A stretch of DNA of 35,627 nt from NCBI GenBank assembly GCA_026415035.1, contig JAOAHX010000025.1, forward strand, positions 1 to 35,627. Direction: 5' to 3'. Positions 2,563 to 21,314 of this stretch are shown here, piece by piece (positions within the stretch are counted from its first letter, which is position 1; each line of letters begins with the position of its first letter). The DNA comes from Thermodesulfobacteriota bacterium. Its GTDB lineage: Bacteria; Desulfobacterota; BSN033; UBA1163. A program made the position numbers and the translations under genes. The notes below the pieces were generated by a model that ran no database searches, was not told the origin of the DNA, and saw nothing but the letters and a program-made list of their open reading frames with translations.

Positions 2563-2619
2563 GGGATTCACCTTTCAGGGCCTTTTGGGCCTCGGGCTTC
2601 AACTTTGGGATTTTTATCC

Positions 2620-3985: not shown

Positions 3986-4690
3986 TTAGGATCCTTTCTC
4001 GGAGGTCTGCCTCTTGAGCTCGGCCTCGACGAAATTGAGGTGATCCAGGGTCTTCTGCCTTGCCTTTTCAGGGGCTCGGTTTTTGATGGCCAGGAAGATC
4101 TGGTGGTGATGGTCGATCAACTTTTTGACCTGATCCCGGTTGATGAAGACTTTGGCCATGGATTGCCTCAACAGGTCATAGATCCCGGACATGATGTGGA
4201 CCTGGATCGTGTTATGGGTCGCTTGGGCGATGGCCAGGTGAAAGTCCGCATCCTCCTTTTCCCAGGACCGACCTTCTTCAAAGGTCTTTCGCATCTGCTC
4301 AATGATGGAGCGAAGCCTCTCGATGTCTTCTTTTGAGGCCTTCTGTGCCGCATGATAGGCGGACCAGGTCTCGATGGCCTTCCTCACCTCAATGAGGTCG
4401 AAGACCTTCTGCGCGTCGGCTTTGATAAGAAGGGCGAGGGGGTCTTCGATCAGTTTCGAGGTGACCGAGCGGACATAAGTCCTCTTGGCCTGCCTCACTT
4501 CAAGGAGCCCCATGGCCACCAGGGCGTTGAGGGCCTCCCTCAAGGAGGGGCGGCTGACCCCCAACTGTTTGACAAGCTCTCGTTCGGGGGGAAGCTTGTC
4601 TCCGGGCTTTAACTTCCCTTCTGAAATTAACCTCTTGATTTGATTGACGATATCCTCTGAGATCTTGGTCCGTTTGATGGCGTTGAACAT
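3986..4690 (-). CDS. GntR-family transcription regulator, FadR subfamily
   Basis: The N-terminal winged helix contains KLKPGDKLPPERELVKQLG and SRPSLREALNAL, typical of GntR. The C-terminal half is an FCD ligand domain with DADFHLAIAQATHN and later His residues (DHHHQIF) that commonly bind metal and a small carboxylate. This branch includes GlcC, LldR and PdhR. I set the start at ATG 4690, giving 234 residues. The open frame runs up to a TTG at 4744, but that TTGACA looks like the -35 box of the gene's own promoter (TTGACA, 17 bases, TATTAA). A GGTNNNACC palindrome sits at this promoter and at two others in the island, so self-control and control of the whole island are inferred. The ligand is probably glycolate, glyoxylate or a related acid. 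Confidence 0.9.
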   Translation of the reverse strand: MFNAIKRTKISEDIVNQIKRLISEGKLKPGDKLPPERELVKQLGVSRPSLREALNALVAMGLLEVRQAKRTYVRSVTSKLIEDPLALLIKADAQKVFDLIEVRKAIETWSAYHAAQKASKEDIERLRSIIEQMRKTFEEGRSWEKEDADFHLAIAQATHNTIQVHIMSGIYDLLRQSMAKVFINRDQVKKLIDHHHQIFLAIKNRAPEKARQKTLDHLNFVEAELKRQTSEKGS

Positions 4691-4700
4691 AGATTTGTCC

Positions 4701-4717
4701 AGTGGTCTTACCTTTTT
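4701..4717. promoter_or_regulatory. Candidate GntR/FadR-type operator O3 at the regulator's own promoter
   Basis: Read on the minus strand the 17 bases are AAAAAGGTAAGACCACT. The core AGGTAAGACCA fits the FadR-subfamily pattern TnGTnnnACnA with one mismatch. It abuts the -10 box (4716-4721), a position expected for autorepression. It is the weakest of the three sites found. Confidence 0.5.
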
Positions 4718-4744
4718 AATAAAGGATGGAATGACCTTTGTCAA
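4716..4744 (-). promoter_or_regulatory. Internal sigma70 promoter of the GntR regulator gene
   Basis: On the minus strand, TTGACA (4744-4739), a 17-base spacer and TATTAA (4721-4716), 26 bases before ATG 4690. The consensus -35 coincides with the TTG that opens the longer reading frame, which argues against that start codon. It would allow the regulator and glcD1-glcF1 to be transcribed separately from the TRAP operon. Confidence 0.6.
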
Positions 4745-4810: not shown

Positions 4811-5776
4811 TTAGAAAGGATTGAGCCAGTTCGGGGGTTTTCCCGTGGTGAGGGCCGCTACCAGGTTTTCTGCGGCCAGCATCGCCATCCGGTAGCGGGT
4901 AGCCCGTGAAGAACTGGCGATATGAGGGGCGAGGACCACGTTCTTCAATTCGAGGAATTGAGGGTTGAACTTCGGCTCATTCTCGAAGACATCGAGGCCT
5001 GCGCCTGCGATCGTTCCCGAACGGAGGGCCTCGATCAGTGCGGCATCGTCCACCACCCCGCCCCGGGCCGCGTTGATGAGGACCGCGGTTGGTTTCATCC
5101 GCCTCAATTCAACGGGACCGATCAGGTGGTGGGTTTCCGGAGAATAGGGGACGTGGAGGGTGAGAATATCGGCCTGGGAGAGAAGCTCTTCCTTGGTCAC
5201 GAACGTCGCCCTGCAGGCCTGTTCAACCTCCGGAGCGGCCCGGCGAATGTCATGGTAGAGGATCTTCATCTCGAAACCGACGGCCCTTTTCGCCACGGCC
5301 TGACCGATGCGTCCGAGGCCGAGGATACCCAGGGTGGCATGGTGAACGTCGAGGCCGAGAAACTGTTTGAGCTTCCACCCATCCCACTGGCCGGAGCGAA
5401 GGTAGGCCTCGGCTTCGGTCAACCGACGGGCGGTGGCCAGGATCAAGGCCCAGGTGAAATCCGCGGTGGTGTCGTCGAGGACGCCCGGGGTATTGGTGGC
5501 CATCACCTTGGCCCGGGTACAGGCCTCGAGATCGATGTTGTTGTAACCCACGGCGATGTTACAGACGGCTTTTAGATGGGGACACCGTGAGAGGAGGACG
5601 GAATCGATCCTGTCCGACAGGGTGATCAGGGCCCCCTCTTTATCGGAGAGTTTGGCAGCGAGCGTTTCGGAATCGAACGGGACATCCGATTGATTCGAGG
5701 TCACCTCGAAGTATCGGGAGAGATAATCGAGCACCTCATCGAAGACCTCTCGGGTCACCAGGACTTTAGGCCTCAT
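4811..5776 (-). CDS. D-2-hydroxyacid dehydrogenase, glyoxylate/hydroxypyruvate reductase type
   Basis: Predicted NAD(P)H-dependent reductase that turns glyoxylate into glycolate or hydroxypyruvate into glycerate in the cytoplasm. The 321 residues match the GyaR/GRHPR branch: nucleotide-binding GLGRIG at 153-158 with a Rossmann fold, the substrate Arg238 in NAARGG, Glu267 in DVFENEP, and the acid-base His285 in APHIASSS. VCNIAVGYNNID near 71-82 is characteristic of glyoxylate reductases. Start ATG 5776 has AAGGGAGA before it. It sits between dctM and the GntR gene on the same strand, with 60- and about 120-base gaps. The aminotransferase at 314 could make the hydroxypyruvate it would reduce. 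Cofactor preference and exact substrate are not visible with confidence. Confidence 0.88.
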   Translation of the reverse strand: MRPKVLVTREVFDEVLDYLSRYFEVTSNQSDVPFDSETLAAKLSDKEGALITLSDRIDSVLLSRCPHLKAVCNIAVGYNNIDLEACTRAKVMATNTPGVLDDTTADFTWALILATARRLTEAEAYLRSGQWDGWKLKQFLGLDVHHATLGILGLGRIGQAVAKRAVGFEMKILYHDIRRAAPEVEQACRATFVTKEELLSQADILTLHVPYSPETHHLIGPVELRRMKPTAVLINAARGGVVDDAALIEALRSGTIAGAGLDVFENEPKFNPQFLELKNVVLAPHIASSSRATRYRMAMLAAENLVAALTTGKPPNWLNPF

Positions 5777-5836: not shown

Positions 5837-7786
5837 TTATTTATACACCAGGGAGGGAAGCCACAACCCGATCTGTGGGAAAATATATAGGATGATGATG
5901 GCGATGACCTGAATTCCCATGAAGGGCATCATCCCCAAAAAGATCTGGTTCAGGGTGACATGGGGAGGGGCAACCCCTTTCAGGTAAAAGGCCGCCATGG
6001 CCACCGGTGGGGAGAGGAATGCGGTCTGGAGGTTGAGGGCTACCAGGAGGCCGAAGAAGAGGGGATCGATCTGGAAGTGCGACAGAAGAGGGATGAAGAT
6101 GGGCATGAAGATGACGATGATCTCTGTCCACTCCAGGGGCCAGCCGAGGAGGAAGATGATAACTTGGGCCAGGATCATGAACTGAATGGCCGTCAGATCG
6201 AGCGACTTCACCCAATCGTTGATGATCTCCTGTCCTCCGAGGAGGGCGAAGGCCGCGGCGAACATGCTCGAACCCACGAAGAGCCAGCAGACCATCGCGC
6301 TTGTTTTGGCCGTGAGGAAGACCGATTCTTTGAGCATCTTGAAGTTGAGTTGTCGGTAGGCGGCCGCCAGGACAATCCCTCCAAAGGAGCCCATCGCAGC
6401 GGCTTCGCCGGGCGTGGCCAGGCCGAGGATGATCGTTCCCAGAACCCCCAGGACCAGGATGGCCAAGGGGAAGAAGGACTTTAGAAGGATTTTGAAGATT
6501 TCGAAGCGGACGAAGTTGAAAATGGAATAGAAGAGGACGAAGCCGGCGGCCACGATTCCTACGGCAATCCAGAACCCCCTTGGAGCGGGTTTTCGTTCTC
6601 CCGTGGCGACCTGGGACGGCGGGGCTTCCTGAGGGGCTTCCGCCTCGGTTTGAGGCTGGGGAGCCTCTTCCACGGCTCCGGAGGGCTTCTCACCTTCGGC
6701 CGCTTCCTCGGAAGGGGGTTCTTGCAGTCCGGTCAACTCTTCCACCTTCAGGGAGGTTTCGGTTTCGGGCGCGGCCTCTCCTTCTATTCTCGAGGCCAAA
6801 CCCATCTCCTGGACGCCCACTACGACCGCCTCGGGCGCGGTCAAGGTGAGATAGATCCCCCCCAGCAAAAGGACTGCCGCGAAGACGGGCAGGAGGCCGA
6901 TCCCCAATTGGCCGATGAGCGTGCGTGGAGGGATCTTCACCACTCTGTTTTTCAATAAGGCTTTCACAAACCCTTTCATGACATTCCGGGTTTTCAAGTT
7001 TTCGATGATGGACTTTTCATAGGAGGGCAGCTCCACTCGGCGTTCCTCTTCCGGAAGGGGAGGGGCGACGTCTGGCCTCAGTTTCGCAAGGACGATGACG
7101 TACGCGATATAGAGAGAGGCGAGCATGAAGCCGGGGAAGAAGGCGCCTGCATAGAGCTGAACGACGGAGACGCCCGCGGTGGCCCCGTATAGGATGAGAA
7201 GGACCGAGGGAGGGATCAGGATTCCCAAGGTCCCACCCGCGGTGACCGCTCCGGCAGAGAGCTTGATCCCGTATCCCGCCTTGAGCATGGCCGGAAAGGC
7301 CAGAAGCCCCATCAACGTCACGGCCGCACCGATGATCCCTGTGGCCGTCGCAAAGACCGCGCACGTGGCAATGGTGGCCACCGCCAGCGAACCTGGAATG
7401 CGCGCGGTCGCCAGATGCAGCCCTTTAAAAAGCATCTCGATGAGGTTGGAACGCTGGACCAGATAACCCATGAAGACGAAAAGGGGAATGGCGATGAGGA
7501 CGTCGTTGTTCATCACAGCGTAGGCCCGGGCCACCATCAGATCCAGGGTCTGGCGCACGGCCGTCTCCGGGTTCACGCTCCGATAGGCGAAATAAGCGAA
7601 CATGGTGCCCATTCCCATCAAGGTGAAGGCGGTGGGGAAGCCGAGCATGATCGCCACCACGATCATGGCGAGCATCAATAAACCCAGATGGCCGGTGGTC
7701 ATTTCGGAAGGCGGGGGCATGATCATGAAGACGATAAACACCACCACCGCCATGATCGACAGTCCAAACCAAGCCTCTTTCTTCAC
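5837..7786 (-). CDS. dctM: TRAP transporter large permease DctM, extended form with acidic insert
   Basis: Predicted ion-driven inner-membrane permease that works with DctQ and DctP to import an organic acid. It has many hydrophobic segments and TRAP-M signatures such as GGTLGILIPPS (184-194) and LATPGEAAAMG (456-466). The length of 649 residues is well above the usual ~430. The extra length lies around 300-440: a first copy-like LLPVFAAVLLLGGIYLTLTAPEA segment (298-320), a Glu/Pro/Ala-rich low-complexity stretch (about 331-402, 17 Glu against 5 Lys/Arg), an extra membrane segment (404-425), then the canonical segment FFPLAILVLG...ATPGEAAA (438-464). ATG 7786 overlaps the dctQ stop by 4 bases (ATGA). 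Longer DctM forms exist in nature, so this may be a subfamily trait. Confidence 0.92.
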   Translation of the reverse strand: MKKEAWFGLSIMAVVVFIVFMIMPPPSEMTTGHLGLLMLAMIVVAIMLGFPTAFTLMGMGTMFAYFAYRSVNPETAVRQTLDLMVARAYAVMNNDVLIAIPLFVFMGYLVQRSNLIEMLFKGLHLATARIPGSLAVATIATCAVFATATGIIGAAVTLMGLLAFPAMLKAGYGIKLSAGAVTAGGTLGILIPPSVLLILYGATAGVSVVQLYAGAFFPGFMLASLYIAYVIVLAKLRPDVAPPLPEEERRVELPSYEKSIIENLKTRNVMKGFVKALLKNRVVKIPPRTLIGQLGIGLLPVFAAVLLLGGIYLTLTAPEAVVVGVQEMGLASRIEGEAAPETETSLKVEELTGLQEPPSEEAAEGEKPSGAVEEAPQPQTEAEAPQEAPPSQVATGERKPAPRGFWIAVGIVAAGFVLFYSIFNFVRFEIFKILLKSFFPLAILVLGVLGTIILGLATPGEAAAMGSFGGIVLAAAYRQLNFKMLKESVFLTAKTSAMVCWLFVGSSMFAAAFALLGGQEIINDWVKSLDLTAIQFMILAQVIIFLLGWPLEWTEIIVIFMPIFIPLLSHFQIDPLFFGLLVALNLQTAFLSPPVAMAAFYLKGVAPPHVTLNQIFLGMMPFMGIQVIAIIILYIFPQIGLWLPSLVYK

Positions 7787-8409
7787 TTCTCGTCCCCTTT
7801 CTTCGTTTTAATCAATTCGTCCAGTTTCTGGATGTCTTCGTCCTTTACGTGGACCATCTCCTTCAGCTCTTCGACGTCCACCTCCTCCACATCCTTTTCG
7901 CGAGAGGGCCACTGGCCGTTTTTGATGCAGCGAATACAACGGATCATTTCGACAAATCCCTGAAGCAAGATGATCCCTCCCGCGACCGGAATGACCGTCT
8001 TGAACCAGTAAAGAGGAGGTCCATCGGCGATGATGCTCGACCGCTCCCGGATGGCCCAGGATTCCCCGGCATAGATATAGCCGGCCCAACAGAGCCCCAC
8101 GATGCCCGGGATGAAAAAGAGGGTATAGAGGATCAAATCGAGCGTGCCCTGGACCCTGGGGGGAAAGAACCGGTAGAGGACGTCCCCGCGGACATGGGCA
8201 TTCGTCGCAAGCGTGTAGGCGCCTGCCATCATAAACATCGTCCCATACATCTGGAGCATGATGTCGAAGGCCCAGGGATGGGGAGAGCGAAGCACATAGC
8301 GGCTGAAGACCTCGAAGGTGATGAGGAAGGTAAGGGAGACGATGAGCCAGGAGAAGATTTTCCCGACCCACGTGCTGAACTCATCGATGAAGAGGAGTAT
8401 TTTTTGCAT
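7783..8409 (-). CDS. dctQ: TRAP transporter small permease DctQ
   Basis: Small membrane subunit of the TRAP transporter. The 208 residues show about four membrane segments in the first 165: ILLFIDEFSTWVGKIFSWLI, the region after HPWAFDIMLQ, LDLILYTLFFIPGIVGL, and TVIPVAGGIILLQGFVEMI. A charged, probably coiled-coil tail follows (about 170-208, rich in Glu and Lys) and makes it longer than typical DctQ (~160-180). ATG 8409 follows AAGGGA. Its stop overlaps the dctM start, so the two permease genes are translationally coupled. A strong terminator-like hairpin separates it from dctP, so it is probably made in lower amounts than the binding protein. Confidence 0.9.
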   Translation of the reverse strand: MQKILLFIDEFSTWVGKIFSWLIVSLTFLITFEVFSRYVLRSPHPWAFDIMLQMYGTMFMMAGAYTLATNAHVRGDVLYRFFPPRVQGTLDLILYTLFFIPGIVGLCWAGYIYAGESWAIRERSSIIADGPPLYWFKTVIPVAGGIILLQGFVEMIRCIRCIKNGQWPSREKDVEEVDVEELKEMVHVKDEDIQKLDELIKTKKGDEK

Positions 8410-8425
8410 GACCGTTCCCTTTTAC

Positions 8426-8465
8426 AAAAAACATCCACCCGGACGCGGGCGGCGTCCGGGTGGAT
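8426..8465 (-). terminator. Strong hairpin with U-tract between dctP and dctQ (attenuating terminator)
   Basis: A perfect 14-bp stem (8433-8446 with 8452-8465; arm ATCCACCCGGACGC) closes a 5-base loop. On the minus strand it is followed by G and six T. It lies 21 bases after the dctP stop. It looks like an intrinsic terminator allowing partial readthrough, setting more binding protein than permease. Confidence 0.85.
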
Positions 8466-8486
8466 TGTGGGATCCTAACGAACCGA

Positions 8487-9722
8487 TTACTTCTTCGCCG
8501 GGGCGGCCGGTTTGGCTTCGGGTTTCGCCGGAGCCTTTTCTGCGGGCTTGGGGGCTTCTCCGGGTTTCACCGCCGGTTTCGCCACGGGCGCCTTGGGTGC
8601 GAAGTAGTGTCGGTAGGCCATCTTTCGGTCTACGATGGTGTCCATCTCCCAGGCCAGGGCCCGTTTCGCAAAGGCGATCTGGGATTCGACGATCTCCTTG
8701 AAGAGGGGAACGTCGGCCGATTTTTTCTTGACGATCTCATCGTAGACCTCGAGCTGTTTCCGGAGGATGGCATCCGGCGTCTTGTAGAACTTCACGCCGT
8801 CTTTGGTCTGCATCTCGATGTAGTCTTTCGAATACCGGTCGATCGCCTTCCAGGACATATCGGCCGAGGCTGCCTCGACCGCATTCTCGATGATCGCTTT
8901 GAGCTTGTCCGGCAGGGCATCGTATTTGGTCTTGTTGAAGAGGATCTCGAACTGCTCGCCGTTCTGATGGAAGCTCTGGAGCATACAGACCTTGGAGACG
9001 TCGGGGAAGCCGAGCAGGCGATCCGAAGAGGCATTGTTAAACTCCGCTCCTTCGATGAGGCCGCGGTCCATGGCCGGGACGATCTCCCCTCCTGGCAGCG
9101 CGACGACCGAAAGGCCCATGGCGGTGAACAGGTCGACCGAAAGCCCCACCGTCCGATATTTCATGCCCTTCATGTCCTCCAACTTGGTGATCGGCTTCTT
9201 GAACCACCCCAAGGGCTGCGTGGGCATCGGTCCATAGAGGAAGGAGACGACGTTGGCACCGATGGAGGCATAAATTTTGGCCAGGAGTTCCTTGCCTCCG
9301 CCATATTTGTGCCATGCCAGTAACATGTTGGCATCCATTCCGAAAGCCGGACCCGACCCCCAGAGGGCTAAAGCGTTCTGTTTCCCATAATGGTAAACGA
9401 GCACGCCGTGGCCTCCATCGAGGGTTCCCTTGGAGACCGCGTCGAGCAATCCGAAGGCAGGGACCACGGCGCCCGCAGGCAACACCTCGATCCGGAGTTC
9501 GCCGCCGGTCATGTCGTTTACTTTCTTTGCAAAGTCGAGGGCGAACTCATGGAAGATATCCTTGGCAGGCCAGGTGGACTGCCAGCGGAAGTTGATCGGG
9601 GTGGCTGATTTCACAATGGCGGGGAATCCCACCGTCGCGGCAGCCCCTGTGACCGCAGCCGCCTTGAGGAAATGACGGCGCGTGACCTTCTCCTCTCCTG
9701 TTTTCTTCAATTTTTCGGTCAT
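8487..9722 (-). CDS. dctP: TRAP transporter substrate-binding protein DctP, TakP/lactate-like, Tat-exported
   Basis: Predicted periplasmic receptor for a 2-oxo or 2-hydroxy monocarboxylate. The N-terminus has a twin-arginine signal (TRRHFLK at 14-20, then a hydrophobic Ala-rich stretch to about residue 39), so export of the folded protein is likely. The mature part resembles TakP and the lactate-binding TRAP group: VLPAGAVVPAFGLLDAVSKG, PFKPITKLEDMKGMK-like spacing, and LPGGEIVPAMDRGLIEGAEF. The last ~37 residues are a Lys/Ala/Pro-rich low-complexity tail (9 Lys, 3 Glu), not part of the normal fold. ATG 9722 has an ideal AAAGGAGG 5-6 bases upstream. It is the first full gene of the leftward operon. 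Glycolate, glyoxylate, lactate or pyruvate are plausible ligands given the neighbours. Confidence 0.9.
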   Translation of the reverse strand: MTEKLKKTGEEKVTRRHFLKAAAVTGAAATVGFPAIVKSATPINFRWQSTWPAKDIFHEFALDFAKKVNDMTGGELRIEVLPAGAVVPAFGLLDAVSKGTLDGGHGVLVYHYGKQNALALWGSGPAFGMDANMLLAWHKYGGGKELLAKIYASIGANVVSFLYGPMPTQPLGWFKKPITKLEDMKGMKYRTVGLSVDLFTAMGLSVVALPGGEIVPAMDRGLIEGAEFNNASSDRLLGFPDVSKVCMLQSFHQNGEQFEILFNKTKYDALPDKLKAIIENAVEAASADMSWKAIDRYSKDYIEMQTKDGVKFYKTPDAILRKQLEVYDEIVKKKSADVPLFKEIVESQIAFAKRALAWEMDTIVDRKMAYRHYFAPKAPVAKPAVKPGEAPKPAEKAPAKPEAKPAAPAKK

Positions 9723-10325: not shown

Positions 10326-10333
10326 AATTTTTG

Positions 10334-10362
10334 TTGACAAAAAGGTTCCGATTTGTTATAAA
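10334..10362 (+). promoter_or_regulatory. Consensus sigma70 promoter of the CoA-ligase/malyl-CoA lyase operon
   Basis: TTGACA (10,334-10,339), a 17-base spacer and TATAAA (10,357-10,362), close to ideal. The first gene starts at 10,442, leaving a leader of about 70 bases. Confidence 0.8.
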
Positions 10363-10441
10363 GGGAAAAATTTTATCATCAAGGTTTTTCTGCCTCGAGT
10401 CCGTCTGGAAGGTTTTAACTGAAACCCGAGAGGAGGTTTTT

Positions 10442-11698
10442 ATGGCTCGATTGTACGAGTATCAGGGGAAGCAATTGTTGAAGACCGCCAAAGTGGCCGT
10501 GCCTCAGGGAGAGGTGGCGACCACCCCCGAGGAGGCGAGGAAGATCGCCGAAAAGATCGGAAGGCCTGTGGCGATCAAGGCCCAGATCTGGGCAGGGGGC
10601 CGTGGAAAAGCAGGTGGCATCAAGTTCGCCTCTTCGCCGGAGGAGGCGGAGAAGGTCGCAAGCGAGTTGCTCGGCTCCAAGCTCAAAGGGCTGACGGTTG
10701 AGAAGGTCCTGGTCGAGGAGAAGCTCGATATCGACCAGGAGTATTATGCCGGGGTCATCATCGACGCCTCCCGGGAGGTCCGTGCGCCGGTGGTGATGTT
10801 CAGCACCGAAGGCGGGGTGGAGATCGAGTCGGTCCCCTCGGAAAAGATCTCCCAGATGACGGTCAATGTGCTCAGGGGTTTCAAACTCTATGACGCCCTG
10901 AACCTCGCCGTGAGTCTGAAGGTCCCCAACAAACACCTTCAGGGGGTGGCCCAGGCCATCATGGGTCTCTTTCAAACCTTCAAAAACTATAACTGCCGGA
11001 CCGCAGAGATCAATCCCCTTGTCCTGACAAAGGACGGAAAGATCCTTGCGGGAGATTGCCGGATGGCCATCGATGACTCTTCGGTCTTCCGCCATCCCGA
11101 GCTGGGGATCGAGGTGGCACGGGAATCTGCCACGCCCCCTACCGAACTGGACAAGATCGCCTGGAAGATCGAGGAGGATGATCTCCGGGGCACCTGCTAC
11201 ATCGCTCAGATGGCCGAGGACATCAAGGAGCTCAATTACGTGGGATACCACGGGATCGGCGGCGGTGGGGCGATCCTCGGCGTGGATGCCCTGAACCGGC
11301 AGGGATTGAAGATCGCCAATTATGCCGATACGAGCGGAAACCCCACGGCCGCCAAGGTTTACCGGGCCGCCAAACTGATCCTCAACCAGCCCGGGATCGA
11401 GGGCTACATGTTGGGGGGCTTCATCGTGGCCAATCAGGAGCAGTGGCACCACGCCCATGGCGTGGTGAAGGCCCTCCGGGAGGAGATCCCCAAGAGGCCC
11501 GGCTTCCCCTGTGTCATCCTCCTCTGCGGGAACAGGGAGAAGGAATCGATGGAGATATTAAAGGAAGGGACGGCGGATCTTCCTGGCCGATTTGAATTCT
11601 ATGGAAGCGACAAGGTTTATGAGACCGAATTTTTGGCCAAACGGATGAAGGCCCTGATCTTAGAATATCGGAAGGACCGCGGGATAAAGGAGGAGTAG
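10442..11698 (+). CDS. ADP-forming acyl-CoA synthetase beta subunit, SucC/malate-CoA ligase (MtkA)-like
   Basis: Predicted ATP-grasp subunit that couples ATP to formation, or release, of an acyl-CoA. ATP-grasp residues are visible: VAIKAQIWAGGRGKAGG (43-59) and the AEINPLVLTKDGKILAGDC stretch. At 418 residues it is longer than SucC or MtkA (~390). The C-terminal CoA-ligase domain is divergent: where SucC has a DVGGGA-like loop after the glycine-rich segment, this protein reads YADTSGNPTAAKVYRAAK. ATG 10,442 has GAGGAGG 5-6 bases upstream; the open frame extends further 5' but without a ribosome site. The operon partner is a malyl-CoA lyase-like protein, so malate is the favoured substrate. 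Succinate or another dicarboxylate is possible. Confidence 0.85.
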   Translation: MARLYEYQGKQLLKTAKVAVPQGEVATTPEEARKIAEKIGRPVAIKAQIWAGGRGKAGGIKFASSPEEAEKVASELLGSKLKGLTVEKVLVEEKLDIDQEYYAGVIIDASREVRAPVVMFSTEGGVEIESVPSEKISQMTVNVLRGFKLYDALNLAVSLKVPNKHLQGVAQAIMGLFQTFKNYNCRTAEINPLVLTKDGKILAGDCRMAIDDSSVFRHPELGIEVARESATPPTELDKIAWKIEEDDLRGTCYIAQMAEDIKELNYVGYHGIGGGGAILGVDALNRQGLKIANYADTSGNPTAAKVYRAAKLILNQPGIEGYMLGGFIVANQEQWHHAHGVVKALREEIPKRPGFPCVILLCGNREKESMEILKEGTADLPGRFEFYGSDKVYETEFLAKRMKALILEYRKDRGIKEE

Positions 11699-12009: not shown

Positions 12010-12906
12010 ATGGCTATCTTGCTCGAAAAGAATACGACGGTTCTCGTTCAGGGAATTACGGGTCGAGAGGGTTCGGCCCGGGCCGTTTTTATGAAAAACT
12101 ACGGGACCAAGGTCGTCGCCGGCGTCACCCCCGGACGGGGTGGGGAGGATGTTTCCGGGATACCCGTTTACAACACGGTGGCCGAGGCGGTCAAGGCCCA
12201 TGGCCCCATCGATGCCAGCGTCACCTTCGTTCCCGGGCCTGGGCTGAAGGATGCCGTTTTTGAGGCGATCGACGGCGGCATCAAATTCATCGTGATGCCG
12301 GTGGAACGCGTCCCTCTCTACGATATTCTTGAGATGATGGCCTATGCCAAACAGCACGGGGTCCGGCTCCTCGGTCCCGGGTCGATCGGGATCATGAGTC
12401 CCGGCATCGCCGTGATGGGCTGGCTCGGTGGATCTCCGGATTTCGCCAAGAGGGTCTTCGTGCCGGGGCCGATCGGCGTCATCTCCCGAAGCGGGGGACA
12501 GTCGGGGACCGTTCCCTGGGCGATCAAAGAGGCCGGGATGGGGGTGAGCACGGTGGTCCACATCGGGACCGAACCGGTGATCGGGACCTCTTGCGGCGAT
12601 CTCCTCCCCCTCTTTGAGAAGGACCCGGATACGAAAGCGGTGGCCATGTTCGGTGAGATCGGTGGCCCATACGAGGAGGAGGCCGCCGAGGCGGTCAGGA
12701 ATAAAACCTTCACCAAGCCTTTGGTGGTCTATGTGGCAGGTGCCTGGGCCCCTGAAGGGATGCGGTTCTCCCATGCGAGCAGCATCATCGAGAGGGGGAG
12801 GGGCTCGGCCAAGGACAAGATCAAATCCCTCAAGGAGGCCGGAGTCCATGTGGTGGACCGACCCGACGAGATCGCTCCCACGCTGAAGAGGTTGCTGAAC
12901 CTTTGA
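12010..12906 (+). CDS. ADP-forming acyl-CoA synthetase alpha subunit, SucD/malate-CoA ligase (MtkB)-like
   Basis: Predicted CoA-binding subunit carrying the phospho-histidine. The 298 residues match SucD/Mtk[11 protein letters not shown] (12-21), [11 protein letters not shown] (35-45), [12 protein letters not shown] (50-61), [10 protein letters not shown] (157-166), [11 protein letters not shown] (215-225), and the active-site His255 in [16 protein letters not shown]. SucD usually reads GHAGAII at that point, so the site is conserved but altered. AAGGAG precedes ATG 12,010. It works with the beta subunit at 10,442, and the lyase follows after 34 bases. The order beta, Cys-rich protein, alpha, lyase suggests one functional unit. 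Confidence 0.88.
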
Positions 12907-12940: not shown

Positions 12941-13834
12941 ATGACAGTCATGCGGTCAGTCTTTTACATTCCCGGCAATAACGAGAAGATGATCTCGAAG
13001 GCCCCTGAAATTCCGGCCGATATCATCACCCTCGACCTGGAGGACTCTGTGCCCCCGGCCGAAAAACCGAAGGCTCGGGAGATGGTGCGGGAGAATCTGA
13101 AATACGCTGGATCGGGCGGTTCGACGGTGTATGTCAGGATCAACAATTGGGAGACCCTGATGACCAACGACGACCTCGAGGCCATCGTCTACGAGGGGCT
13201 ATCGGGCGTCTGTTTGGCCAAGTGCGGGGGGCCCGACCATGTCCAGCGCCTCGACTGGAAATTGGAAGAACTGGAGAGGCGAAGAGGCCTTCCCGTGGGG
13301 AGCATCGCCATCCAGCTTCTGATCGAGACCGCCAAAGGGGTCATCAACGCCTATCCATCGGCCATCGCGAGCAAAAGGGTCAACTCCCTCATCTTCGGGG
13401 CGGTGGATTATACGAAAGATATGAGGGTCAAATTGACGACCGAAGGGGAGGAACAGTTCTACGCCAGGGCCCATACCGCCGTGGCCGCGAGGGCGGCGGG
13501 CTGCATTGCGATCGATTGTCCTTTCGTGGCCTTCAAAGACACGGAGGCCTTCGAGAAGAATACCCGTTTCGGCCGACAGTTGGGCTATGAGGGGAGGATG
13601 CTCATCCATCCCAGCCAGATCGAACCGGCCCACCGGATTTACACCCCAGCCCCAGAGGATGTGGAGTGGGCGAAGGGGGTGGTCAAGGTCTTCGAAGAGG
13701 AGGGCATTGCCAAGGGAGTCGCAGCCGTCTCCTACCAGGGGAAGATGGTCGATACCCCGGTCTATGAGAATGCAAAGACCATCCTGGCCATCATGGCCGA
13801 GATTGAGGCCTTCGACGCCAAACGGAAGAAATGA
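12941..13834 (+). CDS. HpcH/HpaI-CitE family lyase, malyl-CoA lyase-like
   Basis: Predicted to cleave malyl-CoA into acetyl-CoA and glyoxylate, or to run the reverse condensation. The 297-residue TIM-barrel protein has the CitE/Mcl signatures: RSVFYIPGNN (5-14), LDLEDSVPPAEK (31-42), the CoA/oxalate-binding Arg66 in YVRINN, metal ligands Glu129 (LLIETAKG) and Asp156 (FGAVDYTKDM), and LIHPSQI (221-227). ATG 12,941 has AAGGAGGTG upstream. Coupling to a SucCD-like ligase is the hallmark of malate thiokinase plus malyl-CoA lyase in the serine cycle and in glyoxylate fermentation. A citramalyl-CoA or beta-methylmalyl-CoA lyase would look the same at this level. Confidence 0.87.
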   Translation: MTVMRSVFYIPGNNEKMISKAPEIPADIITLDLEDSVPPAEKPKAREMVRENLKYAGSGGSTVYVRINNWETLMTNDDLEAIVYEGLSGVCLAKCGGPDHVQRLDWKLEELERRRGLPVGSIAIQLLIETAKGVINAYPSAIASKRVNSLIFGAVDYTKDMRVKLTTEGEEQFYARAHTAVAARAAGCIAIDCPFVAFKDTEAFEKNTRFGRQLGYEGRMLIHPSQIEPAHRIYTPAPEDVEWAKGVVKVFEEEGIAKGVAAVSYQGKMVDTPVYENAKTILAIMAEIEAFDAKRKK

Positions 13835-13849
13835 AAGGCAATCCTTTTC

Positions 13850-13920
13850 GAAAGGGCAAGGCCCATCTCCCACCCTTTTACCCCCACCAACCCCGATGGG
13901 CCTTGTCCTTTTCGATTTTT
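13850..13920 (+). terminator. Long inverted repeat after the lyase gene, terminator or attenuator
   Basis: Arms 13,850-13,867 and 13,895-13,912 pair over 18 positions with one G-T wobble (core GGCAAGGCCCATC with GATGGGCCTTG), with a 27-base C-rich loop, then GATTTTT. It lies between the lyase and the next gene on the same strand and probably lowers downstream expression. Confidence 0.7.
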
Positions 13921-13933
13921 GAGGGCAAGGGAG

Positions 13934-14845
13934 ATGAGAATTGTCATCGTCGGGCAAGGGCCTTTCGGTGAGAAGGTGTTGGAGCGATTGCTCCAGAAGG
14001 GGGAGCAGGTGGTGGGCGTCTTCGCCCCTCCTGACAAGAGGGGAGAGCCGCTGAGAAAGCTGGCCGAGAAGTCCGGCATCCCCGCCTTTCAACCCTCCCT
14101 GATGAAAGCTCCAGAGGTGGAGGACCAGTTCCGCAGTTTGAGGCCCGACCTCGCCATCCTCGCCTTCGTCACGGATATCGTTCCAGAAAGGTTGCTGAAC
14201 GTCCCCTCCATCGGGACGATCTGCTACCATCCCTCGCTTCTCCCGAGACATCGCGGGGCAAGTGCCATCAATTGGGCGATCATTCAAGGCGACACCCGCA
14301 CGGGATTGACCATCTTTTGGGTCGATAAGGGGATCGATACCGGTCCCATTCTGCTTCAAAAGGAGGTGGAGATCGGCCCCGAGGAGACGACCGGGAGCCT
14401 CTATTTCAACACCCTCTTTCCGATGGGTGTGGATGCCATCGCCGAGGCCGTAGACCTCATTAAAGCGGGGAGGGCCCCTAAAATCCCCCAGGACCATTCG
14501 AAGGCCACCTATGAGCCTCCCTGCGACGACCGGGTGGCGGCCATAGACTTTGCAAGGCCCATCGGAGAGGTTTACAATTTAATCAGGGGCTGTGATCCGC
14601 AGCCAGGGGCCTACACCGCCTTCAGGGGAAAGAGGATCCGGTTGTACGAGGTTAAGAAAAGGGAAACCCCTTCCAAGGGAAGCCCGGGAGAGGTGGAGGC
14701 CATCGGAGAGAAAGGGCTGGAGATCGCGGTTCCGGGCGGAACACTCCTTATCGGGAAATTGAGGATCGATAAAGGGGAGAAGATCGGGCCCATGGAATTC
14801 GCCCAATCGGTGGGCTTAAAAGTGGGAGATCGGTTGGGGGAGTAA
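13934..14845 (+). CDS. 10-formyltetrahydrofolate hydrolase-like / formyltransferase family protein
   Basis: The 303-residue protein follows the folate formyltransferase fold. It looks closest to the N-terminal hydrolase domain of 10-formyl-THF dehydrogenase (ALDH1L1) rather than to Met-tRNA formyltransferase: YHPSLLPRHRGASAINW (98-114) and FWVDKGIDTGPILLQKE (128-144), with the catalytic pair His99 and Asp135 at the 36-residue spacing of that domain. Fmt normally has an N-x-H-x-SLLP motif instead. The C-terminal domain is present, but no aldehyde dehydrogenase part follows. Start ATG 13,934 follows AAGGGAG. Likely role: release formate and THF from 10-formyl-THF, balancing one-carbon units when glyoxylate is made into glycine and serine. 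A formyl transfer to another acceptor cannot be excluded. Confidence 0.75.
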   Translation: MRIVIVGQGPFGEKVLERLLQKGEQVVGVFAPPDKRGEPLRKLAEKSGIPAFQPSLMKAPEVEDQFRSLRPDLAILAFVTDIVPERLLNVPSIGTICYHPSLLPRHRGASAINWAIIQGDTRTGLTIFWVDKGIDTGPILLQKEVEIGPEETTGSLYFNTLFPMGVDAIAEAVDLIKAGRAPKIPQDHSKATYEPPCDDRVAAIDFARPIGEVYNLIRGCDPQPGAYTAFRGKRIRLYEVKKRETPSKGSPGEVEAIGEKGLEIAVPGGTLLIGKLRIDKGEKIGPMEFAQSVGLKVGDRLGE

Positions 14846-14856
14846 AAGGAGGTCGT

Positions 14857-16242
14857 ATGAACCGCGAACAGAGGATCGAGGCGCTGGCCCAGATCGTGGG
14901 CAAGGAGAATGTGGCCCACTCGGAGACAGACCTGTTGCTCTATGGATATGATGCCTCCCTTTTCAAAGGGAAACCGGATTGCATCGTCTACCCGGGGTCG
15001 ACCCAGGAGGTCTCCGAGGTCGTCAAGTTCTGCCATCGGGAGAAGATCCCCGTCATCGCCAGAGGCTCTGGGACCAACTTAAGCGGGGGCACCGTGCCCA
15101 CCAACGGCGGGGTCATCCTCCATTTCTCCCGGATGAATCGGGTCCTTGAGATCGACATCGAAAACCAGCGGGCCGTCGTCGAGCCCGGCCTCTTCACCCT
15201 CGCTCTCAAAAACCAATTGGCCCGATTCGGGTTCGTCTATCAGCCGGACCCGGCCAGCGAGAAGGTCTCGACGTTCGGTGGGAATTTCGCCGAGAATTCG
15301 GGAGGGCCTCACTGCCTCAAATATGGGGTGACGACCAATCACGTCCTCGGAGCCGAGATCGTGCTTCCTGACGGGGAGGTGATCCAGGTGGGAGGGAAGG
15401 CCCTCGATAGCCCCGGGTACGACCTGACCGGATTGCTCGTCGGTTCTGAGGGGACCCTCGGGATCGCCACCAAACTGATCCTCCGGATCATGCCCAAACC
15501 CGAGGCCGTGAAGACGATGCTTGCGATTTACAACTCCCTCGAGGATGCGGGAAGGACCGTTTCGGCGATCATCGCCGAAGGCATCGTCCCCGCAACGCTC
15601 GAAATCCTCGACAAATTGACGATCAAGGCGGTGGAGGCCTCGGTGCGGGCGGGTTTCCCCCTCGACGCAGAAGCCGTTCTTTTGATCGAAATCGATGGAC
15701 TCCAGGACGGCCTGGAGCGGCTCGCCCAGCGGATCATCGAGATCTGTTGGGCGAATCATGCCCGCGAGGTGAAATCGGCAAAGACCGAAGCCGAACGGAC
15801 CCAGCTCTGGGCGGGCCGAAAAGGGGCCTTCGGGGCCGTGGCAAGGCTCCGGCCCAATTACCTCGTCTGCGACGGCACGGTGCCGAGGACCAAACTTCCC
15901 GAAGTCCTCGGCCGGGTCATGGAGGTCAGCCGAAAGTACGACCTTCCCATCGCAAACGTCTTTCACGCGGGCGATGGTAACCTCCACCCCCTCATCCTTT
16001 TCGATGAGAGGAATCCGGAGGAGCTGGAGAAGGTCCATCGTGCGGGATCCGAAATCATGAAGATCTGTGCCGAAGCGGGCGGGACGATCAGCGGCGAGCA
16101 CGGGATCGGCACGGAGAAGATGAAGGAGATGTTCTTCATCTTCTCGGTCCAGGATATCGCCGCCATGAAGAAGGTGAAACGGGCCTTCGACCCCGAAGGA
16201 ATTTTTAACCCAGGCAAGATCCTTCCCGAGGTTTCTGCCTGA
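14857..16242 (+). CDS. glcD: FAD-linked glycolate oxidase subunit GlcD2
   Basis: Second GlcD paralogue in the window, 461 residues. It shows the FAD-binding ARGSGTNLSGG (68-78), DPASEKVSTFGGNFAENSGG, LDSPGYDLTGLLVGSEGTLG, the cap motif FHAGDGNLHPLILFDE, SGEHGIGTEKM and a FNPGK end. The AENSGG and SPGYDLTGL wording is typical of the bacterial GlcD branch with GlcE and GlcF. GGAGG lies 5-6 bases before ATG 14,857, and 11 bases separate it from the formyl-THF hydrolase-like gene. Predicted to oxidise glycolate to glyoxylate as the catalytic subunit of a GlcDEF complex. It differs clearly from GlcD1 at 2,620, so the two may differ in substrate or electron acceptor. Confidence 0.92.
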   Translation: MNREQRIEALAQIVGKENVAHSETDLLLYGYDASLFKGKPDCIVYPGSTQEVSEVVKFCHREKIPVIARGSGTNLSGGTVPTNGGVILHFSRMNRVLEIDIENQRAVVEPGLFTLALKNQLARFGFVYQPDPASEKVSTFGGNFAENSGGPHCLKYGVTTNHVLGAEIVLPDGEVIQVGGKALDSPGYDLTGLLVGSEGTLGIATKLILRIMPKPEAVKTMLAIYNSLEDAGRTVSAIIAEGIVPATLEILDKLTIKAVEASVRAGFPLDAEAVLLIEIDGLQDGLERLAQRIIEICWANHAREVKSAKTEAERTQLWAGRKGAFGAVARLRPNYLVCDGTVPRTKLPEVLGRVMEVSRKYDLPIANVFHAGDGNLHPLILFDERNPEELEKVHRAGSEIMKICAEAGGTISGEHGIGTEKMKEMFFIFSVQDIAAMKKVKRAFDPEGIFNPGKILPEVSA

Positions 16243-16265: not shown

Positions 16266-17630
16266 ATGGTCAGAATGGGAGGACTCCTTCCCCAGTTGAA
16301 AGCGATCGTCGGAGAGGCCAACCTGATCGACGATCCCGATCGCCTGCAAACCTATGGAGTGGATGGGAAGAGGCCCAAAGCGGTCGCCCTGCCGGGGAGC
16401 CAGGAGGAGGTCTCGAAGCTCCTCGCTTTGGCCAATGATCACGGGCTGGCCGTGATCCCCATGGGGAGCGGGACGAAACGGGAGATCGGCGCCCTTCCCA
16501 AGAGGCTCGATCTGGTCGTCTCGACCCTCCGGCTCAACCGGATCACGGATTGCGATTGTGACAACCTCACACTGTCGGCCGAAGGGGGGCTCACCCTCGG
16601 CGAGGTCCAGAAGAGATTGGCCCGGGAGGGGAGGGGCTATTTTCTACCCCTCGATCCTCCCTTTTCAGAGAAGGCCACGTTAGGGGGCATTGTGGCCTCC
16701 AATGCGAGTGGACCCGGGCGGCTCCTCTATGGCACCGCGAGAGACCTGGTCATCGGCGCCAAGGCGGTCCTTCCGAACGGAGATCTGGTGGCCACGGGCG
16801 GAAAGACGGTGAAGAATGTTTCGGGCTACGATCTCTGTAAACTTCTGATCGGGTCCTACGGGACCCTCGGCATCCTCTGTGAAATCACCTTCAAACTCCT
16901 CCCCCTTCCGGAGAAGGCGGCTACCTTGGTCCTTCCCTATCCCGGCCTGGAAGGGGCGGTGGCATTCAGCCAGGAGATCCTTAGGTCCCAATATCTTCCC
17001 TCTTCGATGGAGATCCTCAATCCCTCGGCCGTTGAGAGGTTGAACTTGGAGGTTTCTTCGAAGGGATATTATCTTCTGGCCATCCGGCTGGAGGGAGTGG
17101 TCGAGGCGGTAGAACGACAACTTTCCGAGATGGGAGAGAAGGGGAGGCAGAAGGGGGCGATTTCCCAAGACGTCCTCCAGGGGGAAGCCCACGAGGCCTT
17201 CTGGGAGGCGATCCGGAATTTCCCCGAAAGGATGAGGGGAGAAGGAGGGAAGGGGATTCGCCTGAAGTCAAGCTTCCTGATCTCCCGGTGCGGAGAGGTG
17301 ATGGCCCAATACGAACGGATCGGCCAGGACCATCGCCTCAATTGTGCCCTTCTCTGCCACTCCGGGAACGGGATCCTCTATACTTCCGTCTTTCCTGACG
17401 GGGGAAGAAGGGTATCGAAAAAGGCGGTTCTGGATGCGATCGGAGCATTTTCTTCGGTGGCCTCTCAATACGAAGGTCATCTCGTTGTGGAACGGTGTCC
17501 TTCCTCTTGGAAGGGGGAGATCGAGGTCTGGGGACCTCCCCGGAGCGATTACGGGATCATGCGGAGGCTGAAAGAGGAATTCGATCCCAAGGGCATCCTG
17601 AACCCTGGGCGGTTCATCGATGGCCTCTGA
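16266..17630 (+). CDS. glcE: Glycolate oxidase FAD-binding subunit GlcE-like
   Basis: Predicted second flavin-binding subunit of the GlcDEF complex. FAD-domain motifs are present: VIPMGSGTKREIG (63-75), EKATLGGIVASNASGPGRLLYG, and TVKNVSGYDLCKLLIGSYGTLG. At 454 residues it is longer than E. coli GlcE (~350), with a GlcD-like C-terminal cap ending in FDPKGILNPGRF. The GlcD signature FGHAGDGNLHP is replaced by CHSGNGILY, as in GlcE proteins. ATG 16,266 follows GAGGAGAGG; spacing to glcD2 is 23 bases and to glcF2 21 bases. Function follows from family and position; it may be non-catalytic. Confidence 0.87.
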   Translation: MVRMGGLLPQLKAIVGEANLIDDPDRLQTYGVDGKRPKAVALPGSQEEVSKLLALANDHGLAVIPMGSGTKREIGALPKRLDLVVSTLRLNRITDCDCDNLTLSAEGGLTLGEVQKRLAREGRGYFLPLDPPFSEKATLGGIVASNASGPGRLLYGTARDLVIGAKAVLPNGDLVATGGKTVKNVSGYDLCKLLIGSYGTLGILCEITFKLLPLPEKAATLVLPYPGLEGAVAFSQEILRSQYLPSSMEILNPSAVERLNLEVSSKGYYLLAIRLEGVVEAVERQLSEMGEKGRQKGAISQDVLQGEAHEAFWEAIRNFPERMRGEGGKGIRLKSSFLISRCGEVMAQYERIGQDHRLNCALLCHSGNGILYTSVFPDGGRRVSKKAVLDAIGAFSSVASQYEGHLVVERCPSSWKGEIEVWGPPRSDYGIMRRLKEEFDPKGILNPGRFIDGL

Positions 17631-17651: not shown

Positions 17652-18797
17652 ATGAACGTGGAGGAGTTGAAAACCTTATTTTACGACGAAGTGGCCAAAT
17701 GCAACCATTGCGGATTCTGCCTGGCCCACTGCCCGATCTACACGATCACGGGCCGGGAATGGGCAACGCCCAGGGGGAAGAATGCCCTGATCCGGGCGGT
17801 CATCGAGGGCAAGATCGACTGGACCCCCGAGATCGAAGCCACCCTCTTTCGGTGCACGGGTTGCCGGCTCTGCACCCAGACCTGTTTCCCGGCGGTCGAG
17901 ACGAACCAGGGCGTCCTCGCAGGTCGGCAATGCCTCGTGAACCGGCGGCTCTATCCGAAGGTGATCGATCAGGTGACCGAGGCCTTGGAGACCCGCCATA
18001 ATATCCTGAATGAACCCAACGAGAACCGGACTCTCTGGCTGGAAAAACTGGAGGGCCTTCCAGAGCATCGGTTTCAGAAGGAGAGGGCGAAGGTCATCTA
18101 TTTTGTCGGGTGTGTTTCCGCTTTCTACCCCATGGCCCAGAAGATCCCCCAAACCTTCGTCCAGATCTTAAGCCGGGCCGGGGTCGACTTCACCCTTTTA
18201 GGGGGCGAGGAGTGGTGCTGTGGATTTCCCCTCATCCAGGCCGGGATGAAGGAGAAGATGGAGGAGTTGATCGAACACAACCAAGAGAGGGTGAAAGCCA
18301 TAGGGGCGGAGACGGTGGTCTTCGCCTGCCCCTCCTGCTTCCATACGTGGAAGGAGAAGTATCGGACCGAAGCGGAACTCCTCCATTCGACCCAGTTCCT
18401 CGAGCGTTTGATCGGTGAGGGGAAGATTGTCTTTCGCAACGGCGTCGAACGGAAGGTGACCTATCACGATCCCTGCGATCTGGGGAGAAACAGCAAGGTC
18501 TTCGAGGCGCCGAGAAACGTCCTGAAGCAGATCCCGGGCCTGAATCTCGTGGAGCTTGAAGGGAACCGACAGTTGAGCGTCTGCTGCGGTGGGGGGGGAG
18601 ATCTGGAGATGATCGATCCCAGCCTTTCCTCGGCCATCGCCCAGAAGAAGATCGAGGAGATCCAAAGAACCGGGGCGGACGAGGTGGTGACCTCCTGCCA
18701 GCAGTGCATCCGGACGATCTCCGGCTATGCCCGAAAGAACAAGATCAAATTGAAGGTGCGGGACATCACCGAGGTCGTTCTGGAGGCGATGGGGTAG
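17652..18797 (+). CDS. glcF: Glycolate oxidase iron-sulfur subunit GlcF2
   Basis: Electron-transfer subunit of the GlcDEF complex. The 381 residues hold two N-terminal cluster motifs (CNHCGFCLAHCPIY and CTGCRLCTQTCFP) and two CCG domains (EEWCCGFPL and LSVCCGGGGDLE), with further CPSC and CQQC motifs. The second cluster's last Cys is followed by Phe-Pro rather than directly by Pro, a small departure from the norm. ATG 17,652 has GAGGAG about 10 bases upstream. It ends the rightward operon. Its last 32 bases overlap the end of the convergent aldolase gene, and I see no terminator between them. Confidence 0.9.
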   Translation: MNVEELKTLFYDEVAKCNHCGFCLAHCPIYTITGREWATPRGKNALIRAVIEGKIDWTPEIEATLFRCTGCRLCTQTCFPAVETNQGVLAGRQCLVNRRLYPKVIDQVTEALETRHNILNEPNENRTLWLEKLEGLPEHRFQKERAKVIYFVGCVSAFYPMAQKIPQTFVQILSRAGVDFTLLGGEEWCCGFPLIQAGMKEKMEELIEHNQERVKAIGAETVVFACPSCFHTWKEKYRTEAELLHSTQFLERLIGEGKIVFRNGVERKVTYHDPCDLGRNSKVFEAPRNVLKQIPGLNLVELEGNRQLSVCCGGGGDLEMIDPSLSSAIAQKKIEEIQRTGADEVVTSCQQCIRTISGYARKNKIKLKVRDITEVVLEAMG

Positions 18798-19884: not shown

Positions 19885-19917
19885 CGGTTTTAAATTTTCA
19901 TGAAAGGAGGCGGTGAA

Positions 19918-21252
19918 ATGGATCGAGCGAAACTCATCTCCCTATTATTCATCTCAACAACGCTGTTGACCTTCCTTTCCCCGGCCATGGCACAAAAAAT
20001 CGAGCTTCAGTTCTGGCACGGGCTGGCCCAACCCTTGGGAGGGATTCTCGAAAAGATCGTTGCCGACTTCAATGCCTCTCAGAACCTCTATCACGTGAAC
20101 GCCACTTTCAAAGGTTCTTATCCGGAGACGATGGTGGCGGCCATTGCCGCCTACCGGGCCGGCAATGCCCCCCATATCGTCCAGATGTTCGAGGTGGGTA
20201 CCGCCACCATGATGGCGGCCCGGGAGGCCATCAAGCCTCTGTACGAATTGATGAAGACGACCGGGGTGCCTTTCGATCCTAAAATCTACGTTCCTGCGGT
20301 CCGGGGTTATTACAGCCTCCCGGATGGCCGGATGATGTCCACTCCCTTTAACAGTTCCACCGCCGTCATGTTCTATAATAAAGATGCCTTTCGAAAGGCG
20401 GGCCTGGACCCCGAAAAACCCCCTCGAACCTGGGCCGAATTGCGTTCCTATGCCCAGAAGATCCGGGCAGCCAATGCGGCCAATATCGGATTCACCTGCG
20501 CCTGGCCCACCTGGACCCAGTTCGAGCAGTTCAGCGCAATTCATGATGTCCCCTTTGCCTCAAAGGCCAATGGCATGGATGGCCTAGATGCGGTCTTGAT
20601 GATCAACAGCCCTCTTCATATTCGCCATGTGCAGACCCTCATCGATATGCAGAAAGAAGGCTCTTTCAAATACGGGGGTAGGGATTCGGCAGGAGACGCC
20701 CTCTTTCCCTCCGGAGAGGCCGCGATCATCCACGCCTCTTCGGGATTGCGGGCTCGCATATTACGGGAGGCCAAATTCGAATGGGGAGTGGCCACGCTCC
20801 CTTACTATGAGGATGTCAAGGCCGCGCCCAAGAACTCCATCATCGGGGGAGCCAGTTTCTGGACCATGACGGCTCCCAAGAGGACCGCAGAAGAATACAA
20901 GGGGGTGGCCGAGTTTTACCGTTTTATCAGTCAACCGGAGGTGGTGGCCAAGTGGCACATGGAGACGGGCTTCCTTCCCATCACCTTTGCCGGTTATGAG
21001 AAGGTCGTGGCCTCGGGCTATTACAAACAGAATCCGGGAGCCGACCTGCCCTTCCGTCAGCTCACCCGGACCGAGCCCACCGAGAATTCCCGGGGGTTGA
21101 GATTGGGCAACATGCCGGAGATCCGGGTCATCATCCAGGAAGAGTTGGAAAAGGCCTTACAGGGACAGCAGACCGCAGCCGAGGCGATGGATAACGCCGT
21201 CCGGCGCGGCAATGTGGTCCTCCGAAACTTCGAACGGCTCCACCGTCAGTAA
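19918..21252 (+). CDS. ugpB: ABC transporter binding protein for glycerol-3-phosphate/glycerophosphodiesters, UgpB
   Basis: Periplasmic receptor for sn-glycerol-3-phosphate and glycerophosphodiesters. A Sec signal peptide with a hydrophobic core ends at an AMA-Q site near residue 25. The mature part tracks UgpB closely: [77 protein letters not shown] and [19 protein letters not shown] set the start at ATG 19,918, which follows AAAGGAGG by 5-6 bases; the ATG at 19,900 would place the Shine-Dalgarno inside the gene. It is first in a ugpBAEC-ugpQ operon. A short G/C hairpin follows the stop. Confidence 0.93.
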
Positions 21253-21275
21253 ACGATCGATTTCAAGGACTCCTT

Positions 21276-21300: not shown

Positions 21301-21314
21301 TGGCAAGGATGGGG

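Follow-up and report, generated by a model that had tools for sequence, protein, structure and literature searches.

The protein encoded on the plus strand at positions 13934 to 14845 of the window, here named FTH, is best explained as a bacterial 10-formyl-THF deformylase, similar in type to the hydrolase of ALDH1L1 but standing alone, and not as a methionyl-tRNA formyltransferase (Fmt), an assignment whose chances we regard as evenly balanced. The window is the whole stretch of DNA that was analysed (35,627 nucleotides) and represents contig 25 of the source genome G000, whose assembly is about 97% complete. Among the bacterial families met in this analysis, the FTH family, meaning stand-alone proteins composed of a Formyl_trans_N and a Formyl_trans_C domain, is by sequence comparison the nearest to the formyl-folate hydrolase domain of ALDH1L1, and it is misnamed in one case. 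The activity of FTH, its role in the cell and the pathways assigned to the neighbouring genes are what we infer.

The FTH frame starts with an ATG and encodes 303 amino acids; in a mechanical list of open reading frames it begins at the TTG at 13919. The protein starts directly with the formyltransferase domain (PF00551, E 3.8e-36), which is accompanied by the Formyl_trans_C domain (PF02911, E 3.3e-17). The sequence-only reading had stated that no aldehyde dehydrogenase follows. This is confirmed, as the frame stops at 14845, glcD begins 11 nt downstream and the 303 residues contain neither a fused carrier (4'-PP) nor an aldehyde dehydrogenase domain. No aldehyde dehydrogenase match was found among the window proteins scanned, which were part of the window's ORF list. 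Relatives of FTH were present at 33 genome-contig loci with 53-79% identity over the best segment, so the observation is not due to chance.

When FTH was compared with the sequences in the PDB, the top matches were the ALDH1L1/FDH hydrolase domains (4qpd, 219 bits, E 6.8e-64), whereas the best Fmt, 4iqf, reached 154 bits. The identity was 42-46% to the ALDH1L1 domains (4qpd, 1s3i, 2bw0), which have the same two subdomains and the Tyr-His-Pro-Ser motif, and 37% to the Fmt of the same genome. By sequence FTH is thus nearer to ALDH1L1 than to Fmt, as had been proposed for its catalytic region in the sequence-only reading. The predicted structure (mean pLDDT 93.7) had 4qpd as its top match with a Z of 35.4. 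Since Fmt followed in a near-tie with a Z of 35.3, the fold alone cannot separate FDH from Fmt. Further fold matches were ArnA (2bln, Z 33.9) and the N-terminal domain of HypX (Z 22.6, about 22% identity).

Fmt shares the fold and both Pfam domains with FTH, and its model TIGR00460 was the best NCBIfam model for FTH, with 169.1 bits below the cut-off of 201.5. These points and the near-tie of the Z values would speak for a second Met-tRNA formyltransferase, a reading that we consider highly improbable. The source genome encodes three PF00551 proteins, i.e. FTH, one on contig 14 and one on contig 17. The protein of contig 14 is an Fmt by NCBIfam (312.6 bits against the cut-off of 201.5) and is preceded by an ORF that reads by eye as a peptide deformylase; FTH is therefore not the only Fmt of the genome. 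The protein of contig 17 reads PurN-like by eye, and no NCBIfam model matched it at 1e-20. Also against a second Fmt are the missing tRNA loop, the missing catalytic asparagine and the position in the tree, all described below. PurU shares the reaction proposed for FTH and carries an N-terminal ACT-type extension, whereas FTH has the formyltransferase domain at its very start and lies far under the PurU cut-off (TIGR00655, 21.1 bits against 285.95). E. coli PurU also keeps NIHHS. No PurU was seen among the three PF00551 proteins of the source genome with NCBIfam at 1e-20. In the genomes G017 and G022, a third PF00551 protein, whose frame has the length of a PurU (275-291 aa), accompanies FTH, and G010 has FTH plus one PF00551 protein of PurU length, so FTH need not replace PurU.

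The residues His99 and Asp135 and the motif YHPSLLPRHRG are present as the sequence-only reading had described them, and Cys97, Ser101, Arg107 and Tyr193 are found in addition. In the alignment His99 and Asp135 correspond to His106 and Asp142 of the zebrafish numbering, and the ALDH1L1 catalytic His/Ser/Asp set (with Ser108) plus the equivalents of Arg114 and Tyr200 are all present in FTH. Among 80 distinct FTH-class sequences, His99, Pro100, Ser101, Arg107, Gly108 and Asp135 were kept in all 80 and Tyr193 in 74. The position of the transferase asparagine (FTH 97) is Asn in 11 of 11 Fmt, whereas the 80 FTH-class sequences have Cys in 66, Asn in 8 and Gln in 6 cases. An invariant Cys97 as a rule of the family was dropped because Gln and Asn also occur. 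In FDH this position is occupied by Ile104, and an I104N mutant is reported to retain less than 10% activity (PMC4388273). FTH further has Ile82 where FDH has Phe89, whose exchange to alanine left 16% activity according to the same source (PMC4388273). Two other cysteines, Cys197 (72/80) and Cys220 (71/80), are both missing in ALDH1L1.

The insertion loop of Fmt docks the tRNA acceptor stem, as described in PMC13234167. The loop segment comprises 34 residues in 11 of 11 Fmt, with GRG[KR]K in the five Fmt printed, whereas the corresponding segment has 26-30 residues in 79 of the 80 FTH sequences (26 in the window protein; the remaining row is truncated there). A loose GRG/G[KR][KR] pattern occurred in 11/11 Fmt and in 4/80 FTH, in the latter at chance spots within the short segments. 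Among the 63 FTH-class frames in 395 genomes none was longer than 483 amino acids. Apparent fusions of FTH at the loci L131 and L133 were rejected, since their long shadow frames are reads of the wrong frame.

A first tree was computed with 48 FTH, 11 Fmt, 2 ALDH1L1 and the E. coli proteins ArnA, PurN and PurU. FTH and ALDH1L1 formed one group (98/89), separate from Fmt (95/87), and when the three E. coli proteins were left out the split was supported with 100/100. A tree in which the window protein was forced into Fmt was rejected (AU p 0.0005). Of the two findings that would have refuted the sequence-only reading, a place inside true Fmt and the lack of another Fmt in the genome, neither was thus obtained. 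E. coli ArnA fell outside the FTH and ALDH1L1 group on a long branch. We consider it improbable that FTH is an ArnA-like transferase that formylates a small amine or sugar. The same fold and the asparagine kept in 8 of the 80 FTH-class sequences are consistent with such an enzyme; the replacement of the catalytic asparagine in the window protein, the tree and an operon in which no amine or sugar acceptor pathway was recognised argue against it.

In the first tree ALDH1L1 lay within the bacterial part, with L063 and L134 as its neighbours (98/94). When FTH was constrained as a clade of its own, this was not rejected (AU p 0.0675). A nested position of ALDH1L1 inside the bacterial FTH is thus favoured by the bootstrap values but is not certain. 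In an enlarged, midpoint-rooted tree, to which seven more Pseudomonadota sequences were added and from which eight FTH rows were thinned out, ALDH1L1 was sister to a group of nine rows (the seven added sequences, L063 and L134) with moderate support (86/91). The Asn-bearing genomes G093, G125, G214, G226, G326 and G343, counted within the 63 FTH-class genomes, were at the base of FTH in the first tree, and the four of them used in the enlarged tree were near its Fmt/FTH divide; these genomes may represent another family. The NYHPS branch (L135-L138, L141 and L144), which keeps the asparagine and is basal to FTH, may be a separate transferase family.

The features of the window around FTH are the following.

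314..1435, plus strand: class V aminotransferase of the alanine/serine-glyoxylate type (PDB 1vjo, alanine-glyoxylate aminotransferase, 394 bits)
1444..2571, minus strand: GlcF-like iron-sulfur/CCG protein (family match)
2620..3984, minus strand: second GlcD-like subunit (504.7 bits, cut-off 567.9)
3986..4744, minus strand: GntR/FCD regulator (family match)
4811..5776, minus strand: glyoxylate/hydroxypyruvate-reductase-like protein (363.9 bits, cut-off 455)
5837..9722, minus strand: TRAP transporter DctM, DctQ and DctP (family matches)
10331..11698, plus strand: SucC-like acyl-CoA ligase beta subunit (258.7 bits, cut-off 370)
12010..12906, plus strand: SucD-like acyl-CoA ligase alpha subunit (292.5 bits, cut-off 336)
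12941..13834, plus strand: protein of the HpcH/HpaI aldolase family, CitE/malyl-CoA-lyase-like (citE 214.6 bits, cut-off 443.4)
13848..13921, plus strand: terminator- or attenuator-like hairpin with 20 pairs and a T-run (fold, z -3.23)
13934..14845, plus strand: FTH (Pfam, PDB sequence matches, residues and predicted structure)
14857..16242, plus strand: GlcD-like FAD subunit (538.9 bits, TIGR00387 cut-off 567.9)
16266..17630, plus strand: GlcE-like FAD-binding subunit, named by family and order (best model glcD, 197.5 bits; GlcE 155.7, cut-off 284)
17652..18797, plus strand: GlcF-like iron-sulfur/CCG subunit, named by family and order (GlcF 105.8 bits, cut-off 333)

None of the six operon neighbours (SucC-, SucD-, HpcH-, GlcD-, GlcE- and GlcF-like) reaches its NCBIfam cut-off, GlcD being nearest, and the aminotransferase at 314-1435 meets none either (best BhcA, 196.7 against 650). 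The Pfam match of the SucC-like protein begins at residue 40, and its true start may be later. Judged from the gene families, the order sucC-sucD-hpcH-FTH-glcDEF-like would represent a malyl-CoA operon of glycolate and glyoxylate, serving anaerobic glyoxylate use, in which the SucC-like protein may act as malate-CoA ligase. A malyl-CoA route by which Syntrophobotulus glycolicus and Moorella would use glyoxylate anaerobically has been put forward (PMC8092247). Further downstream, at 19900-25054, the window contains a ugpB/A/E/C-like glycerol-3-phosphate ABC transporter and a glycerophosphodiester-phosphodiesterase-like gene.

The hairpin between hpcH and FTH was seen in the fold; a terminator scan omits it, because its loop is above the 8-nt limit of the scan. 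The gap between FTH and glcD, short in the window, ranges from -1 to 210 nt in the near relatives. With the hairpin and its T-run in front and the short gap behind, the transcription unit of glcDEF may begin with FTH. No riboswitch was detected ahead of FTH, Rfam at its gathering thresholds giving only a tRNA at 28869-28939. Inverted repeats of the hpcH-FTH type were noticed by eye also in L037, L039, L042, L043, L055 and L056. Within family f1, HpcH is 93-97% conserved, whereas FTH of the same operon is 69-79% conserved.

A survey of the window's phylum covered 395 genomes, and an FTH-class match was defined as at least 319 bits, the next match having 266 bits. Such a match was present in 63 of the 395 genomes. 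At the 33 genome-contig loci, some of which are cut by contig ends, hpcH immediately precedes FTH at 19 and glcD follows at most 2 kb downstream at 17. The operon hpcH was found in 25 of the 395 genomes, 19 with and 6 without FTH, and at the level of families FTH was present in 6 of 9 hpcH families against 19 of 106 overall; neither count is corrected for kinship, and the Fisher tests, which ignore relatedness, serve as a guide only. At L053 an aminotransferase is directly upstream of FTH (nearest aspartate-glyoxylate aminotransferase, 215 bits, cut-off 650). Its homologue in the source genome is on the FTH contig, and among the 13 family-f1 genomes with a match of at least 250 bits it is on the FTH contig in 7. 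A single-protein fusion of GlcD and GlcE near FTH in L049 passes the GlcD cut-off (586.8 bits); it lies downstream at L049:5518-8121, with a methyltransferase in between.

The core sucC-sucD-hpcH-glcD-glcE also exists without FTH inside, as was observed in L190, L194, L195 and L197; the sucD of L190, the sucC of L194 and the hpcH of L197 are overlapped by longer frames and were located by tblastn. FTH was not found in the genome of L190 (G391). In G041 and G185 it is on other contigs, whereas in G078 the contig of the core also carries FTH, at a distance of about 7 kb. For the neighbourhood outside the families f1 and f2, 47 FTH-class loci (L098-L144) were taken from the 63, excluding 14 of these two families and two contig-edge loci. 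At only 2 of the 47 (L105 and L112) does hpcH adjoin FTH, so the link to glycolate characterises a single branch. A gltX-type cluster, named from L057, is upstream of FTH in 9 of the 47. The glycolate operon named in the sequence-only reading is supported by a gene order that recurs across the lineage of the window.

For the deformylase, the following sequence of events can be proposed. Activation of the N10-formyl group would fall to His99 and Asp135, with help from Ser101 and Arg107, and the group would leave as formate, with water as the presumed final acceptor and free THF remaining. The GlcDEF-like proteins would convert glycolate to glyoxylate, which with acetyl-CoA would give malyl-CoA and then malate via the HpcH- and SucCD-like proteins. 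Alternatively, glyoxylate could be transaminated to glycine by the enzyme encoded at 314-1435, and glycine cleavage would load THF with one-carbon units. FTH would then empty surplus 10-formyl-THF, keep THF free and limit the inhibitory 5-formyl-THF. Such a relief valve in a glyoxylate-making operon appears to be the best-supported role here. The source genome encodes GcvPA/PB (a split GcvP), GcvH and Fhs, all over the NCBIfam cut-offs. A supply of formate to PurT was considered and rejected, as this genome gave no match above the purT cut-off (best 164 against 502).

Plants are described to need a 10-formyl-THF deformylase of the PurU type, which keeps 5-formyl-THF, an inhibitor of the conversion of glycine to serine, from accumulating (PMC4518198, citing Collakova 2008). 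The parallel to photorespiration suggested earlier is consistent with the glyoxylate-type aminotransferase in the window and with GcvPA/PB/H in the genome. It does not extend to the enzyme itself, since the plant deformylase is labelled PURU1 (PMC10575701) and so belongs to another family than FTH. Taken together, the deformylase is favoured by ALDH1L1 as the closest solved relative by sequence, the invariant catalytic residues, the asparagine replaced in 72 of 80 sequences, the missing Fmt loop, the rejected grouping with Fmt, the separate Fmt of the genome, the presence of GcvPA/PB/H and Fhs, the recurring hpcH and glcD neighbours and the aminotransferase of L053. This explanation is weakened by the thiol that FDH needs for hydrolysis in vitro, the core operon without FTH, the 45 of 47 loci without hpcH, the gltX-type clusters, the hairpin between hpcH and FTH, Ile82 in the place of Phe89, the co-occurrence with proteins of PurU length and the linkage to oxc and frc.

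This linkage was found in a sample of 299 genomes of Pseudomonadota, the phylum of G401 (L063, a Hyphomicrobiales MAG), in which FTH was searched at 1e-80. Seven of the 299 genomes had FTH. Five of these seven have oxc, then frc, then FTH in succession and in the same orientation. FTH has fhs as its neighbour in G683, and the 5.2-kb contig of G401 shows neither oxc-frc nor fhs next to it. The order oxc-frc-FTH-fhs occurs on the Paracoccaceae plasmid CP031587.1, in what is apparently an oxalate assimilation set. The two Oxc, two Frc and two Fhs proteins tested (from the plasmid and one each from genome loci) passed the curated cut-offs. The same plasmid region (L204, CP031587.1 65036-83950) also contains sucCD, ppc, a gene annotated as ketopantoate reductase and glyA. 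In the phylum of the window, L139 has a Frc-like gene directly downstream of FTH (375 bits, cut-off 442).

These gene orders bear on a tentative and less likely reading in which FTH would move the formyl group reversibly (formyl-CoA + THF <-> CoA + 10-formyl-THF) with a phosphopantetheine thiol as partner. Oxalate users would load formyl-CoA made by Oxc onto THF, and ALDH1L1 would have kept this chemistry, its fused carrier arm replacing CoA. The oxc-frc linkage in another branch of FTH suggests that, in that branch at least, the formyl group is exchanged with a CoA thiol, and 6 of the 9 rows in the sister group of ALDH1L1 are oxc-frc-linked. In vitro, hydrolysis by Nt-FDH or full FDH is reported to require millimolar beta-mercaptoethanol, a role that 4'-PP may take over in the full enzyme according to the authors (PMC4388273). 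Because of this thiol requirement a bare water hydrolase is not assured for FTH. The formyl acceptor in ALDH1L1 is a phosphopantetheine thiol, so FTH proteins may shuttle formyl groups between folate and CoA. The same source cites an alternative, in which the thiol merely assists product release (PMC4388273). The formyl-THF-using N-terminal domain of HypX/HoxX, which has the same fold, has been proposed to hand the formyl group to CoA (PMC6802093). HypX is fused to an enoyl-CoA-hydratase-like domain, a C-terminal feature for which Pfam gave no match within the 303 residues of FTH.

That the neighbours of FTH in the window are CoA enzymes speaks for the exchange with formyl-CoA; against it, no formyl-CoA source or user is evident there, and the source genome has no Oxc-grade match (best 25% identity, 160 bits). 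Frc homologues among the 47 loci outside f1 and f2 are limited to L139 and to L128, which is weak and not adjacent. We regard as less likely than not the wider proposal that the whole family consists of formyl-THF/formyl-CoA exchangers, with which oxalate, glycolate and glyoxylate users would carry one-carbon units from the CoA-thioester pool to the folate pool or back. Animal ALDH1L1 would have inherited its hydrolase domain from this family, CoA being replaced by the phosphopantetheine arm of a fused carrier, and in the Cys97 branch the cysteine at the former Asn position may serve as a built-in thiol relay. If the exchange with CoA were true, it would connect formyl-CoA directly with folate and would hint at the origin of the ALDH1L1 hydrolase domain and of its need for a thiol arm.

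The FTH of CP031587.1, the one annotated copy seen, is annotated as fmt_2 (methionyl-tRNA formyltransferase), and fmt is the nearest NCBIfam model. A translation label may therefore conceal enzymes that probably control the flow of one-carbon units in some bacteria that use glycolate or oxalate. A literature search, made before the oxc-frc link emerged, did not find the FTH family, and we do not claim that the family is unpublished.

Other surroundings of FTH were also observed. In the Thermodesulfobacteriota MAGs with L047 (3740-5253) and L048 (5210-6721, by clustering only), FTH is between a radical SAM gene and a piece of about 200 amino acids of the PurH N-terminus (IMP cyclohydrolase). 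In L117, L124 and L127 the gene for a Gln-form FTH comes after those of a TRAP transporter and has their orientation. L196 (G191:C15) contains an hpcH homologue with an in-frame TGA, and its neighbours are sucCD and an aminotransferase of the glyoxylate type. Among phage records there were 21 matches, and the five listed had 31-34% identity, which is in the range of Fmt.
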